Origin: Entamoeba invadens IP1 | Lineage: Eukaryota > Evosea > Mastigamoebida > Endamoebidae | Length of the DNA: 64,000 nt | Assembly (NCBI RefSeq): GCF_000330505.1 | Contig: NW_004440113.1 | Coordinates: forward strand, 458,177 to 522,176 | Direction of reading: 5' to 3' | Shown: piece after piece, positions 56,487 through 64,000 of the stretch | How positions within the stretch are numbered: the stretch's first letter is position 1 | How the letters are laid out: each line of letters begins with the position of its first letter | Made by a program: the position numbers and the translations under genes | The notes under the pieces: model-generated | The model's input: only the letters and a program-made list of their open reading frames with translations | What the model was told of the DNA's origin: nothing | Database searches by the model: none

Positions 56487-56814
56487 GAAAACTCAAAATT
56501 AATTATATGGATCATATTTTGAAGTTTGAATGCTTTTGTGATTAGATTGTTTACTATTTACTTATAATATTTTTTTAATAACACATTAATAATTTAAAAT
56601 AGTTTTAAAATGCATAAGTTGTATTGCTTTATAATCTCCTCAATACAACGTTAATTGTTTGCAATTTATTTAACTCGTTAATTTATAGTATTACTGGAAT
56701 TTGAAAATCTTAATGAAATAATTTCAATAAACAGGTAAATAAAAATAATTTGCCTAAGATAATTAAGGAATTAAAAATTGTGTTAAAGAAAAAGCCAACT
56801 TTAAAGCTCAAAGA
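56487..56814. other. Intergenic region between divergent genes
   Basis: About 0.33 kb of AT-rich DNA; no feature supported. Confidence 0.5.
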
Positions 56815-59800
56815 ATGGAAACCACTTTGGAGAATTTGCACTTCTCATGTGAAGTCACACCAACACTAAAAGAATGTCAAGTGATTCAAAAGGTGTATGG
56901 GTTTGGTCACACCAGCACAGGAGAGAGTTGTTGTGTTGTTTTTACTGACTGGAAAATGCACATTGACATTGACTTAACACAATCAATTCCACATGCAACT
57001 GAACAAGAGATATGCGAGAAGTTATTTGATGGTATTGAAACAGCCAATGACACCATCAACGAGAAAAAAGCTAAGAAAAAGAGGTATCATATTATAGAGT
57101 ATATAACAGTATTTCATAAAAGGTCAATAGCTGGCTATAACACTCGTCATATTTTTAGCCGCATCTTTATGAGGAATTTTAAAGACTGTGGAAAACTTCG
57201 AAAGGTATTGGGGGCGTTAGGGTTTGTTGTATTTGAAGCTCATCTGAAGAGTGATATTGTGTTCTTGAACGACTACGGAATGCGAACAATGACACTTTTG
57301 AAGTTTGAGGGGGTTGAGAGTTCAAGCAAAGAGAGTACCTGTACCCATGAAATCGTAGTGAGTTGTAAAGATCTCAAGCGAGAGATGTTCACAACACAAA
57401 CACAAGACATGAAGAATAATAATTTGAAAATCTATTGGGGAAGTGATGAGTATACAAACCATGTCCAAGGAGGGTTGAAAACACCTTCATTTCATGCAAA
57501 AGATGATGAAAACGTGAAGTTGTGGTTATGTAAAATGAAGGAAAAGGTCGAACGTGGTACTGATGAAGTGTCAGTCAATATAAATACGATAAATCTGTTT
57601 GTAGAAAAGTACAATGCAAACCACAAGAGACTCGTGAAAGAGTCGCATTTTCTGAATTACAAAGTGTTGCCCAAATTTGATAAAGACGATGAAATTGAAT
57701 ACAGGAACAAACTTGAAACACAAAGCATGAGTAGCGAAGATGAAGTTGATAAATTAGAAAAGGAGGAAGTTGTGATAAAAGAAGAAACAACTGAAATTAG
57801 AAAACACGATGAAACCAATGGTATTGGTAGTGATGTCCATAATGAAGAAATTGAGATAACACAAATTGATATTCAGAACAACGAAAACGCTGTTACATTC
57901 AATCAAGAGAGAAATGTTGATGTCATGTTCAATCAAGAAAGGTGCGAGGAAGAGTCTGAACACAATGTAGTATCTGAAATAGTTGACAAATTCGAGAACT
58001 CTTTAGGGATTGAGGAAGAGAAAAGTAGTATAGTATTCAATCAACAAATAAGTTCTGAGGAAGAACAAGAATTTTCAATTCCATGTGTTCGAAAAAAGGA
58101 AAGTCAACCTTCAATGTTACAATTAGTTGACTGTGATAGCGTTGCAGTATCACAAGAACATTCTTCACCAAGCGTTCTAAACGATTCGCATATTTTTGGA
58201 ACACAACGTCTTCTATTTACAAAAAGCCAAAATTTTGAAAATGTGAATTTTCAAAATAAAACTGAAAATTTTGTCGCAATGTCAAATAAAAATGATGTTG
58301 CGATAAAAAACAACGAAATTGTGACTTGCAATGCACCACCAACATTTGAAGAGGTGATCAATGACTTCAAGACAAACAATGTTAAAGTAACACACGAGGG
58401 GCTTACCGTTTCTTCTACGATAAAGAAAAGAGGAGAAATGAAAGTGTATAAATACCTCAAACCGCCACCTTCGTTGTCTGAAATCATTCGTAATGAAACA
58501 AAGTACGAACCACTTTATTACGCTAACCACCCTTACGAGCTTGAACTCTTTTACTCTCAGACAATAACTAATCTTGATATTCCATATAAATCCTCCCATT
58601 TTAATGTTCTCTTTTTTAAACTACTATTTCGTCGAATTGACGGCTTTATTGGGGATAATCCAACACCAAACCACGATAAGATCGAAGGTGCGATGTTATA
58701 CAGGTCATCGAAAAGTGAGAATTGTTTCATTTTTGTCCATACATCACAAGACACAATCAATGAATTTCACCGAAATTGTCATGATATCCATACAAAAGAT
58801 TGTGTTGTGGATTCCGAGCTTTCTGTTATCGAAACGATACTCACAGAGATCAACACCGACAGCGACATAATTGTTTCAGAAGACATCTCATTCTCCATGG
58901 ACTTTATTTCTATCAGATGGAAAATGTCCACAACGAAGCCACAAGAGACGATCAGTCGCTTAATTGGAAGTTTGGGGAGTGAAGGACGTGTACTTTTAAG
59001 TTTTTGGTACATCTATAAGAAGTGTGGGAATTACTCCATGTTTGACATTCAGTACATTGCACACAAAGAATTACATGTATTCCTACCACAAGTGAGTCAT
59101 ACACAATTCTCACCACTTGCTAATGTCGTCACCAATTTTCTTCTGTTCCATTGTAGTATTTATTTAGTCGCAAAATTTGGCTACTTCGAGCGATTGAAGG
59201 AATTTGCGACATTTCATTCGTGTCCACTTGAAGAGGAAATAGAAAGAGGCACACAATACCGTGTTGAATGCTGTTTGAAACGTGTTTCTGAAGACTTTGA
59301 ATTGTTCTCCCCGACACCAGAAGACTTGGAAGGAAGTCGCCCGACGACATGTGTACCTCTAGTGATGGAACCAGTGTGTGGATTTCATGAGAATCCAGTT
59401 GTAGTGTTAGACTTCTTGTCGATGTATCCAACAACGATGATAGCTTATAACATGTGTTACTCGACGTGTTTAGGCTATTTGGATGATTTTGACACTCATC
59501 GCCACATTGGGCCGTTTTGGAGTGATTTCGCTCGAACGACACTTTCTGGATTAGAAAATAACATTCACGTTGCGGCAAATGGAGTTATCTTTGTCGATGC
59601 GATACTTCAAAAGGGGGTTCTCCCTTTAATGCTTGAAGAGATCTTATCGACGCGACAACATGTGAAAGACGAATTAAAAACATGTGAGAGGGGAAGTGAC
59701 CGCAATAAACAAATTAATACACAGCAATTAGCACTCAAATTGTTATGTAATGTGGTGTATGGGTATACAGGAGCGGGATTTACTGGGCGGATGCCTTGTT

Positions 59801-61159
59801 CTGCAATTGCAGATGCTACAATAGAAACTGCTCGACAGACTCTAGAACGTGCGATTGAGTATGTTAGGAGTGTTTACCATTTCAATGTCATTTACTCTGA
59901 CACCGACAGCTTGTTTGTCGAAATGCCACATACAACATTGCACGACGCTTTTGTTCTTGGGAAGGAAATAGCTGCAAATGTCACGAAAAGCCTTCCTCGC
60001 CCGATGGAACTCCAATTAGAAAAAGTGTATTTTCCAAGTGTTTTAGTGACTAAAAAACGATACTTTGGAATGAATTACAGAAGTGAAGAATCAAAGCCAT
60101 TTTTGGAGATTAAAGGCCTTGAAGCAGTGCGAAGAGACAGTTGTCGAGCAACAAAACACATCATGATGGGGTGCATCAAATATTTGATGGGAAAGGATGT
60201 CGACGCGCTACAACTCTATTTACAAAAGAACTGGAAATTGATTGAAAAGGGTGAATACAATTTACTCGACTTTGTAATCAGCCGACCTATTCATTATAAT
60301 GTGTGGAGTACAAGAGGAATGACTGTAGGCGCACAAGTCGCATTAAAAGAGAAGAGCAATGATGAGACCTTCCATTGTCAAGACTGGCAAAGAATCAGTT
60401 ATGTCATAGTAAAGTCAAATTCTAAGAAAATTTGTGAAAAATCCATATCCCCTCAATTCGCCGCTAAAAACCGTCTTGAAGTCGACGTAGACTATTATAT
60501 CGAGAAACATATCAATAGTTCAATTGGGAGGATCTTACAAACTTGTGGAATTGGTTTGTTTGTATGTTGTATTAGTAATAATAGATAGTATTATAATACA
60601 GTATTATTTACAAAACAATATAGTAAATTATAGTAAATTATAGTAAATATATTAATTCAAAGATATCAACAGTTGGAGAACTAAACATTGGGTTAATTAT
60701 TCTGAAACTAATAGCACTTCTAAAGCAAGACTTGAGGACTTCTTTGGGTTGTTTGTTCTCTTCGAGATTATATTCAAAACTATACGTTAATAGTATTTTA
60801 ATTATTAATATACTATATGTGTGACATCAAGCAAACGGTGTCTTCTTTGCAACAAGATGACGCATAACGAGAATCTATTATGTGACAAATGTAACAAAAG
60901 CAATGCACTTTCACTTGTATGTCAACAAAACAATTTACGACAGATAGAGGAGAAGATAGTGTGGATGAAAAACCAGTGTATGTCGTGTCAATGTCTTTCT
61001 CCTCAAGTGTGCTCTTCTTTGAATTGTCCTCTCGCATTTCCTTTGATGAAGTTATCAAGTGAATACCTGAAACTGACTGCACCTAAACAACCACCACACA
61101 TCAATTTCATAACAATCAGCGACGATGAGAACTCCAATAATCATAACTCATTTGTATAG
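56815..61159 (+). CDS. REV3: DNA polymerase zeta catalytic subunit
   Basis: B-family polymerase for translesion synthesis. Exons 56815-60553, 60663-60750 and 60832-61159 give 1384 aa. Conserved blocks: CGFHENPVVVLDFLSMYPTT (motif A), NMCYSTCLG, which is a REV3 hallmark, KLLCNVVYGYTGAGF (motif B), VIYSDTDSLF (motif C) and TKKRYFG. The last two exons restore GIDINSWRTKHW and a C-terminal double zinc site, KRCLLCNKMTHNENLLCDKC then CMSCQCLSPQVCSSLNC, which in other organisms holds the iron-sulfur/Zn centre for accessory subunits. Both acceptors are AAG. Residues ~310-560 are an unconserved acidic insert. Exonuclease motifs look degenerate. Confidence 0.94.
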
Positions 61160-61427: not shown

Positions 61428-61798
61428 TCACTTATCTTTGACTTCATTCAATTCGAGTAACGTCGCGTCGTGGAGGAGTTGTATGTCAATAAGAGACTCA
61501 GACATCGAGATGTAACGAATAGTGTTTCCACGAATGAAACAGTTCGTGAGGGTTTGCTGTTTGTTAGAAACAACTTTAAACATGATCTGAGTAACAAACG
61601 AATTGCGGGAAGAGAGCGTTGTCGCTTTTCAAGGTATCCATCTTGACGTTCAAAAGTTGGTCAACAGCAAGGAGCTTACCCGTAATGATCGCGTCGTTTT
61701 TTAATTCGACGGTAACTTCTTTACCAATCAACGTTTTGAAAAACGAGTAAAAAAGCTGGGCGTCAGAGATATGAAAAATGCTATAACAAACAAACCAT
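61428..61798 (-). CDS. LSM2: LSm2, U6 snRNP / mRNA decay ring subunit
   Basis: Sm-fold protein of the LSm2-8 ring on U6 snRNA and the LSm1-7 mRNA decay ring. Exons: 61796-61798 (ATG only), 61600-61755 and 61428-61556, total 95 aa, exactly the length of human LSm2. The spliced start is MLFYSFFKTLIGKEVTVELK, which copies the LSm2 N-terminus; the Sm1 motif continues NDAIITGKLLAVDQLLNVKM and the Sm2 block is NCFIRGNTIRYISM. Introns are 40 and 43 nt. The second intron has CTAAC as a possible branch site before ACAAACAG. The first intron directly follows the start codon. Confidence 0.93.
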
Positions 61799-62091
61799 TT
61801 GATTTTTTTAGATCCTTTTTATATATCACTATTCGAACCATTTTCAATCTCAAATGATCATGATATATCTGTTTTACTAATAAAAATATAATATCTTTTA
61901 TTATTTTTATTTAAATCTATTATGGATTTGTATCATGAAGATACAGAAATGAGAATCTAAAAAACATAACAAATAGAACTATTATTTTTTTAGAATAAAA
62001 AAATACATGAAAATCTAAAATTAAATAGTATAATTATAGAGATATGAGAAACCATAAATAACTAATAATAAAACAATTAATTTAGCATTTG
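61799..62091. other. AT-rich spacer
   Basis: About 0.29 kb between the 5' end of LSm2 and the 3' end of the Maelstrom gene; no feature seen. Confidence 0.5.
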
Positions 62092-64000
62092 TCACACCTC
62101 GAGTACCTCTTCTTTTTCTTTCAAAAGCGATGCATTCAAAAAATTGAGAGTATACCCAACAATAGTGTTTGTTGTGAAAGGGCATTCTTCGATACCACTA
62201 GGGTGTAAAGCGCACTTCCCAACTTTCAAAGTCTTAATTACCTGTTTCTTTGCCTTGGAAAGGAGTCCGTGAGACTTTTTGAATGGAGATATTCGACTCA
62301 CAAAAAGTTGCATGAACTCAGACATCTCAAGAACAGGAAATTGGCGAAGCTTCAAAAACTCAAGCTTTTTCATCATCCCAAGAGATGTCTATTGTTTAAT
62401 TTACTATTAGTATTATTATTGTTAATTTATGGTATTAATAAAAAGAGTGAATGAGATCAAACAAACCAGAACAATCATAGTGTTGTCGCTCTGAGAAATG
62501 AAGGCGTTGAACTTTTCGATTATATCGGAAGGCTCGTCCTTCTTTTTTAAGATGCGTTCCGTTTGCTGAAACCGATAAAACAGTGAGTTTCCGGTCACCA
62601 TTTCGCCTTGAGGTTGAAAGAAAAATTCAGTGAACCCGACCTCGACTATCATTCGATTTCCCGTCGATGCACATGTTGTTATGAGTACTCTCCAGTTATC
62701 CAAGTTCTTAACTTCCCTTTTATGAACGATGCAATGTGGCAGATTTTCTTTTCCAGTAACAGGGAAATTCAAATCGTTAAGGGCGATGAGGACGGTCAGT
62801 GCTGTATGTCGAGCGTCCTCAAGTCCGCAGTGATATTTATCGGCGACACATTTATGATATTGACACCTTTCCACAACGTGTAATTGCTTATATACTTCAT
62901 TCATGAGAGTATCGTATTCCTTCACAACGGTACTTTTCCATCCCTCAAGCATTCCAATCTCCCTTAATAACATCTCATGCGTCAAAAATACAAAGTTGGC
63001 GTTCATCGTTTCGCCAGCCCACTCAAAGATTTTTTCAAAACATACAAAGTCACCCCCTATCGTTTCGTCCTTCAAAACTAAAATGATATAATCTTGATGA
63101 AATTGAGAGAAATACTCCTCAAATCTCTCTATGATCTTTTTATAGTTCTTTTCTAATAACAAACTAGTATAATCTATACCATGACAGGTGACCGCTCGAT
63201 CCATGTTTTCACAGAGAGATGGTGGCGAAAGAAGACAGTGAAAGTAATTTATTTCCTTGTTCTCGGTTATTCTATAAGATGAGATTCCAAGCTCAACGGG
63301 CACTACGCTCGTTTCTCCATCTGAGAACTCAAAATCGAAAAAGTGAAGAACTTCTTTTTTGAGATCGACTTTTGCAAGAATTTCTGCGACGCGGGAATCT
63401 TTCAAAATTTCGGGTTTTTCAATTTCGACTTTTACTGATTTTTCGTTTTTTTCGGTTTTGTCGATTTTTTCATTTTTTTCTTGTAAAATTTCGAGTTTAG
63501 CTTTTTGTTTTCGTTCTTCCTCTTTTTTTCGTTTTCGATCTTCTCGATCTTTCAAAATTTCGTCTTTTGATTTTTTGACTCTTTCTTCGTCTTTTTTGAG
63601 GTCTTCTTTTTGCTCGTTTTTTGTTTTGATTTTTTGATTTTCGCGGAGTTCGATTTTTGGCAACCCTTCTTTGTTTGTTAGAATGACGTTCATATGTGCC
63701 AAAATGATATAAAACGAGAGTGCGCCAACCCTAGCCACGTCAATAGCGCAACTTTTACCTTCCATTTCTTTGTGTAAATCGCACCTCTGAACGGACCCAA
63801 TTTTGTTTGAAATAGACATTAAAAAGGAGTAAGGGCCAAGGGGGAGTGTAATATCAAAATGTTTTGCGATGAAAGCAATGAGCATGTTTTCTCGAATGAA
63901 GTAGTATTCAGGTAGTTGTACATGGCTTTGACTTAATAAGAACATGAGACATTCGACATTAGGGTTATGCGTTTCTTTTCTTTTAACAACAAAAATAATT
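62092..64000 (-). CDS. Protein with three tandem Maelstrom-type (DnaQ-H/RNase-H fold) domains, 5' end beyond the window
   Basis: The reading frame is open to the right edge, so the N-terminus is missing. Exons 62467-64000 and 62092-62388 with a 78-nt intron. Counting from Met at 63945: a first domain end with CDLHKEMEGKSC (C-x2-H-x7-C); a basic coiled coil at ~95-190; a full second domain at ~200-390 with HFFDFEFSDG (DxE), VPVELGISSYR, RCQYHKC then HCGLEDARHTA (C-x2-H-x8-C plus the HxxxxD of DEDDh exonucleases); and a third domain from ~415 through the second exon with KCALHPSGIEEC. Only domain two keeps both the Maelstrom Cys/His set and the exonuclease residues. Likely ssRNA/DNA nuclease or RNA-binding protein in small-RNA or RNA-quality pathways. 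Confidence 0.8.

Follow-up and report, generated by a model that had tools for sequence, protein, structure and literature searches.

An Entamoeba invadens gene apparently encoding three MAEL-type domains, the middle one with a complete set of nuclease residues

Can one amoebal protein carry three Maelstrom (MAEL) domains, only one of which keeps the residues of a nuclease, and, if so, what might such a protein do? The question is raised by a gene on the minus strand at 62092..64000 of a 64,000-nucleotide stretch of DNA from Entamoeba invadens IP1 (hereafter the window), which occupies positions 458177-522176 of contig NW_004440113.1 (C151) in a searched genome of 34.98 Mb and 233 contigs. Maelstrom is known above all from animals, as a factor of the PIWI-interacting RNA (piRNA) pathway. 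An earlier note, made from the window alone, had proposed a single gene with three MAEL-type domains and DEDDh residues, the catalytic set of DnaQ-type exonucleases, in the middle one only. The analysis described here bears this out: the spliced product matches a database protein, and its relative in E. dispar has the same layout. The domains are called D1, D2 and D3 below, from the N-terminus. All three carry the glutamate, two cysteines and histidine of the MAEL zinc site (ECHC), and D2 alone adds the DEDDh set. The assignment of D1 and D2 to the MAEL family is firm at the level of sequence comparison, and that of D3 is supported but weaker.

Gene structure and conservation in E. dispar

The gene reads leftwards, and its product of 722 amino acids begins at a start codon outside the window, at window-equivalent position 64338. 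Completing D1 to the right of position 64000, as the earlier note had advised, took the 338 bases that adjoin the window there. Exon 1 (window-equivalent 64338 to 62467) is followed by a phase 0 intron of 78 bp (62466-62389, minus strand), which reads GTTTGT...AATAG and falls within D3. Exon 2 (62092..62388, minus strand) encodes the C-terminal half of D3, including C683-x2-H686-x6-C693; the domain part extends to 62113 and the stop codon lies at 62092. The spliced product is identical to the database protein P0003 over all 722 residues (100% identity, same splice), as found in a search that scored the best 7,997 candidates by shared short words. The P0003 record, which leaves its source unspecified and refers to a contig of 895,562 bases (C151 has 892,505), is not RNA evidence; P0003 may have been predicted from a different assembly.

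The same search returned P0004, E. dispar EDI_103980 (704 residues, a cluster of four member sequences), as the sole full-length relative among candidates sharing short words, a selection by which others may have been missed. The two proteins align from end to end with the same layout and are 36% identical in D1, 36% in the linker that follows it, 46% in D2 and 38% in D3. Distances between key residues are kept as well: C197 to D335 measures 138 residues in E. invadens and 137 in E. dispar, and C504 to E566 measures 62 in both. All 12 ECHC residues and all five catalytic residues of D2 are the same in the two species. The catalytic positions of D1 read N/N, K/E, N/S, S/G and V/S (E. invadens/E. 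dispar), which leaves the E. dispar D1 with a catalytic-type residue, glutamate, at the second position alone.

Residues of the three domains

D1 (residues 22-220; minus strand, 63679..64000 in the window and up to 64275 outside it) looks inactive. Its zinc residues E45, C186, H189 and C197 are present, and the DEDDh positions are occupied by N30, K32, N127, S196 and V201, none of which is the catalytic residue expected there. D2 (about residues 328-528; 62755..63357, minus strand) combines the complete catalytic set (D335, E337, D430, H503 and D508) with all four zinc ligands (E349, C492, H495 and C504). The FDFE and HCGLED motifs that the earlier note had read in the middle copy are located here, with D335 at 63336 and E337 at 63330 in the former and H503...D508 at 62832...62817 in the latter. 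D3 spans about residues 549-716 and is split by the intron. Its N-terminal half (residues 549-624; 62467..62694, minus strand) keeps E566, which with C683, H686 and C693 makes up the ECHC set; the DEDDh residues are absent from the aligned positions, as read from the alignment by eye.

The first codons of the C-x2-H...C clusters lie at 63783 (C186), 62865 (C492) and 62214 (C683), close to the three occurrences of C-x2-H-xn-C that had been placed near 63786, 62865 and 62200. Each cluster taken alone is only mildly unusual: among 5000 residue shuffles of each domain, the pattern C-x2-H-x(5-11)-C arose 85 times in D1, 235 times in D2 and 40 times in D3. It is therefore homology, not the rarity of the motif, that carries the weight of the case. 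The regular spacing once ascribed to the clusters is not found. They lie 306 and 191 residues apart, because about 100 residues of charged linker separate D1 from D2, and D3 follows D2 almost directly.

The linker (residues 226-320; 63379..63663, minus strand) is rich in lysine and glutamate, with 59 of its 95 residues charged, and is predicted to be partly helical (helices 241-254 and 258-290). A single alpha-helix was considered for it and rejected: in E. invadens the number of opposite-charge pairs at i,i+4 is unusually high, being reached in 168 of 5000 shuffles, and in E. dispar it is not (3691 of 5000). When the complete protein was scanned with Pfam up to an E-value of 10, Maelstrom was joined only by DUF6860 (0.011, below the cut-off), and no high mobility group (HMG) box appeared.

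MAEL similarity of D1 and D2

The Pfam MAEL profile, PF13017, matches the whole protein with 60.2 bits (3e-16), above its cut-off of 22 bits, and the best of the two matching stretches, residues 344-535, corresponds to D2. When the protein was split into thirds, the plain Pfam scan matched D2 and returned no PF13017 match for isolated D1 or isolated D3. Similarity confined to the middle copy is what the earlier note had set against its own claim, and plain Pfam, applied to the isolated domains, gives that result. Profile-profile comparison extends the likeness firmly to D1 and weakly to D3, and a comparison based on the first structure model supports D3. The E. dispar orthologue has no PF13017 match at all up to an E-value of 10, and absence from Pfam is thus no evidence against D1 or D3. 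Compared with a profile of four D2-type domains, D1 reaches an hhalign probability of 99.69% (E 7.7e-26), and with a seven-domain profile 99.72%. Searches of the PDB by sequence were less informative: the one with P0001 gave nothing relevant (best E 0.073), and with an 11-row profile as the query a DnaQ-type chain came up at E 0.087.

Related loci in the E. invadens genome

At least nine MAEL-family loci are present in the genome. Five were found by Pfam search, the loci on contigs C121, C178 and C26 were added with P0003 as the query, and C3 and some short pieces were added with the C121 frame. Scanned directly with PF13017, C121 scores 23.0 bits, over the cut-off, C26 and C178 score 20.6 and 16.5 bits, under it, and C3 gives no match. 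The four loci on C100, C121, C178 and C26 encode a MAEL domain with DEDDh residues (read by eye), and C3 encodes one without them. In all five the MAEL domain is followed by a diverged segment in which a glutamate and a C-x2-H...C cluster recur and whose tail is charged, and the C3 protein has an extra match to the cluster pattern between its domain and its second segment. Counting the triple protein, a MAEL domain followed by such a segment thus occurs at six loci. That the second segments of the paralogues are themselves MAEL domains is suggested by their position and residue pattern, not by a profile match. C137 has DEDDh residues, and the segment after its domain is shorter and lacks the cluster; C134 and a second locus on C151 encode single domains in which D-x-Q replaces D-x-E.

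The E, C, H and C of the zinc site are present in 17 of 17 rows of an alignment read by eye (C137b dropped, C3 not included), and in an 11-row alignment they account for four of the five invariant columns listed by the alignment tool. The second segments of C121, C178, C26 and C3 are linked to one another by blastp (E 2.1e-5 to 5.8e-118), and the same comparison did not link D3 or C100 to this group. In the genome search, residues 22-498 of the C121 protein align to the C100 frame with 28% identity (E 3e-12).

Domain trees had been suggested as a way of recognizing duplication within Entamoeba. D1 does not pair with D2 in a tree of 11 domains, and the pairing is not rejected either (approximately unbiased test, p 0.173). 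In a tree of 17 domains D3 and the second segments of the paralogues fall on one side of a branch whose support is only 53/66 and which comes with long-branch warnings. C137b was omitted from the 17-domain tree, and the C3 segments are in neither tree. As far as these sequences go, the trees neither show nor exclude duplication within one gene.

Three observations on related loci may be added. The C3 protein (L025 1429-3051, minus strand; genome C3:38511-40001), which lacks DEDDh residues in its first domain too and has no PF13017 match, was found solely through its paralogue. Short frames similar to the C121 MAEL protein lie at C120:107937, C186:500643, C187:66806 and C148:25850 and are perhaps gene fragments. 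Upstream of the C137 MAEL gene is a frame that resembles histone H3 by eye (L010 4145-4459, minus strand).

Proposed function and alternatives

The best explanation overall, which we consider fairly probable, is a three-domain MAEL protein in which D2 is an exoribonuclease and D1 and D3 are pseudonuclease domains used for binding. D2 would degrade RNA from 3' to 5' in a metal-dependent way, as a DnaQ/DEDDh exoribonuclease in which ECHC forms a structural zinc site. D1 and D3 would retain the fold that the zinc holds together and, like inactive animal Maelstrom, would probably bind RNA or a protein. Most likely these flanking domains would present single-stranded RNA, possibly the targets or precursors of small-RNA silencing, to the active site of D2. 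This division of labour is proposed because of analogy with two characterized proteins, as described in the accessible text of PMC4408791: an E. histolytica MAEL protein with DEDD and ECHC residues is an exoribonuclease that degrades single-stranded RNA with Mg or Mn, and Bombyx MAEL shows no nuclease activity and binds single-stranded RNA. By the same analogy D2 is very probably an active ribonuclease, and there is a reasonable likelihood that D1 or D3 binds RNA. A part in RNA silencing can be put forward tentatively.

Whether there are three MAEL domains at all depends on D3, and here several results weigh against the explanation just given. D3 alone has no significant profile match (hhalign 0.17-13% overall, 1-13% with the MAEL family). 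It reaches 77% (E 2e-5) solely when aligned with the second segment of C100, and adding three more paralogue segments lowers the value to 29.5%; without D3, the second segments of the paralogues reach 0.25% with the MAEL profile, and the value for D3 against those segments is 0.17%. The structure models are of modest quality, with a mean predicted local distance difference test (pLDDT) score of 53.5 for the first and 62.2 for the second. For the first model Foldseek places RNase T (3.8e-4) marginally ahead of Maelstrom (9nhc_F, 4.0e-4), and the 50 VIA-align rows of the second model fall mostly on D2 and give no independent confirmation of D3. The protein could accordingly contain only two MAEL domains, equivalent to a published N/C pair discussed below, with the C-terminal 170 residues forming a separate lineage-specific zinc-binding domain of chance Cys/His likeness; the failure of isolated D3 in Pfam and the 40 of 5000 shuffles that reproduce its cluster would fit this as well. 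We regard this as unlikely. The ECHC residues of D3 are in register, falling in the invariant columns of the 11-row alignment, and its real score against six family domains was reached by 1 of 100 local and none of 100 global column shuffles. Maelstrom structures fill the top five VIA-align rows of the first model (three for D1 and one each for D2 and D3), which is consistent with a MAEL fold for D3. A more drastic simplification, in which the gene model is wrong, exon 2 comes from another transcript and the true protein stops halfway through D3, is hardly credible. The exon 1 frame does run open to 62422, beyond the splice site, and P0003, whose source is not shown, may itself be predicted. 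However, the intron has the ends GTTTGT and TAG, the former being the extended consensus at the 5' end of those E. invadens introns that RNA data confirm (PMC4053983, accessible text), the frame is maintained across the splice, P0003 is identical to the spliced product, and the E. dispar protein is collinear across the junction and throughout exon 2. At the level of sequence the gene structure is established.

The link to silencing faces difficulties of its own. DEDDh exonucleases work in many RNA pathways, and the protein could be a general RNA-turnover exonuclease, acting in the decay of mRNA or stable RNA with no role in silencing. The neighbouring genes, for an LSM protein, an EF-hand protein and a family B DNA polymerase, offer no hint of RNA interference (RNAi), and the assayed amoeba MAEL protein degraded single-stranded RNA with no silencing partner mentioned in the accessible text of PMC4408791. 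The co-occurrence with Argonaute genes that the earlier note had wished to see checked is real, with a Piwi domain at two or more loci and RNA-dependent RNA polymerase (RdRP) at one or more; it ties the gene to Argonaute only by presence in the same genome. No GTSF1-like partner was found: the sole CHHC zinc-finger match in the genome, of the U11-48K type, sits in a TRM13-type tRNA methyltransferase (L021 391-1644, minus strand; genome C134). On the other side, the titles of solved structures and the accessible text of PMC13269885 place the MAEL proteins of animals in partnership with PIWI complexes, and small RNAs of 27 nt are associated with the Argonautes of Entamoeba (PMC7724847, accessible text); neither is direct evidence for this gene. 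A pure turnover role seems to us somewhat doubtful.

The machinery into which a silencing MAEL protein would fit is described in several papers, cited here from their accessible text. The E. invadens genome paper reports two full Argonautes, one PAZ and one PIWI protein, two RdRPs and one RNase III (PMC4053983), and E. invadens is among the species said to conserve all three Argonautes of E. histolytica (PMC6796981). E. histolytica is reported to have 27-nt small RNAs and 31-nt forms with 3-4 added adenosines, and both sizes are reported from E. invadens as well (PMC7724847). The connection that we draw between the triple-MAEL protein and these RNAs is an inferred one. A more specific idea is that of a caliper for these 3' ends, in which the linker of fixed length would space D1, on the RNA held by Argonaute, from D2 nibbling at the 3' end, with D3 gripping the strand. 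What D2 removes might be, for instance, the 3-4 non-templated adenosines that convert 27-nt into 31-nt small RNAs. We think this idea very improbable. Were the caliper true, a trimming enzyme would have been made entirely from one duplicated nuclease domain.

Relation to known MAEL proteins and exonucleases

Zhang et al. 2008 (PMC2628886) reported five MAEL copies each in E. histolytica and E. dispar. Among them, the E. histolytica protein GI 67477376 has, as here, an N-terminal MAEL domain without DEDHD (Eh67477376-N) and then one with both DEDHD and EHHCHC (Eh67477376-C), the query domain being residues 315-532. The D2 elements of the E. dispar orthologue, at 323-513 of 704 residues, fit 315-532, which makes GI 67477376 the probable orthologue in E. 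histolytica, and the published N/C pair corresponds in all likelihood to D1 and D2. The accessible text of that paper, figures and supplements apart, says nothing of a further MAEL-type domain at the C-terminus, and D3 appears to have been overlooked. EHI_192630 (Chen et al. 2015, PMC4408791), like D2, has DEDD and ECHC in one domain and was assayed as an exoribonuclease dependent on Mg or Mn; it may be the orthologue of the triple protein or of a paralogue, and the accessible text does not discuss a tandem layout.

Animal Maelstrom (Bombyx 5af0, Drosophila 4ybg, and the SIWI complexes 9nhc and 9nhs) shares the ECHC zinc ligands with D1 and D3 and the MAEL fold with D1 and, probably, D3. It has one MAEL domain behind an HMG box and has lost DEDD (PMC4408791, accessible text), whereas three domains, one of them with DEDDh, are present here. 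RNase T, TREX1 and ERI1/3'hExo share the DnaQ fold and the DEDDh residues with D2 but lack its ECHC zinc site, which an arenavirus exonuclease does have (PMC7968707, accessible text). VIA-align ranks Maelstrom structures above these DEDDh exonucleases, whereas Foldseek, with the first model, puts RNase T narrowly first.

The claim that the triple arrangement is not a standard architecture survives in part. A literature search, with most subscription papers outside its reach, found no published mention of a triple MAEL array; against novelty stand the pair of D1-D2 type published in 2008 and the paralogues in the same genome with a MAEL domain and a second segment. The triple protein belongs, as a variant, to the Entamoeba MAEL family already known, and what is new here (the intron-hidden D3, its conservation in E. 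dispar, and the recurrence at six loci of a MAEL domain with a second segment behind it) seems modestly so. The 'active site switch' proposed in 2008 would be present in both its states within one polypeptide, as an active-looking domain of ancestral type and two inactive-looking copies. Should D2 cut and D1 and D3 bind RNA or Argonaute, the protein would offer a natural single-molecule test of MAEL binding versus catalytic loss, and it would be a candidate enzyme for the 3' ends of Entamoeba small RNAs.

Neighbouring genes

Two exon-like frames at 61428-61818 (minus strand) encode an LSM-domain protein; they share the strand of the MAEL gene and lie some 270 bases downstream of it. Farther along, a family B DNA polymerase (PF00136, 3.2e-85) lies at 56767-61156 of the window (plus strand) in a frame that ends at 60588, and a separate frame at 60809 encodes a C4 zinc finger of the DNA polymerase delta type (PF14260, 8.4e-7); the two frames probably form a single gene, split by an intron, for a polymerase of the delta/zeta type. 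Upstream of the MAEL gene are an EF-hand protein on the same strand (L006 4898-5392, minus strand) and a frame of 934 residues (L006 5674-8475, plus strand) with no Pfam match at an E-value of 0.01.
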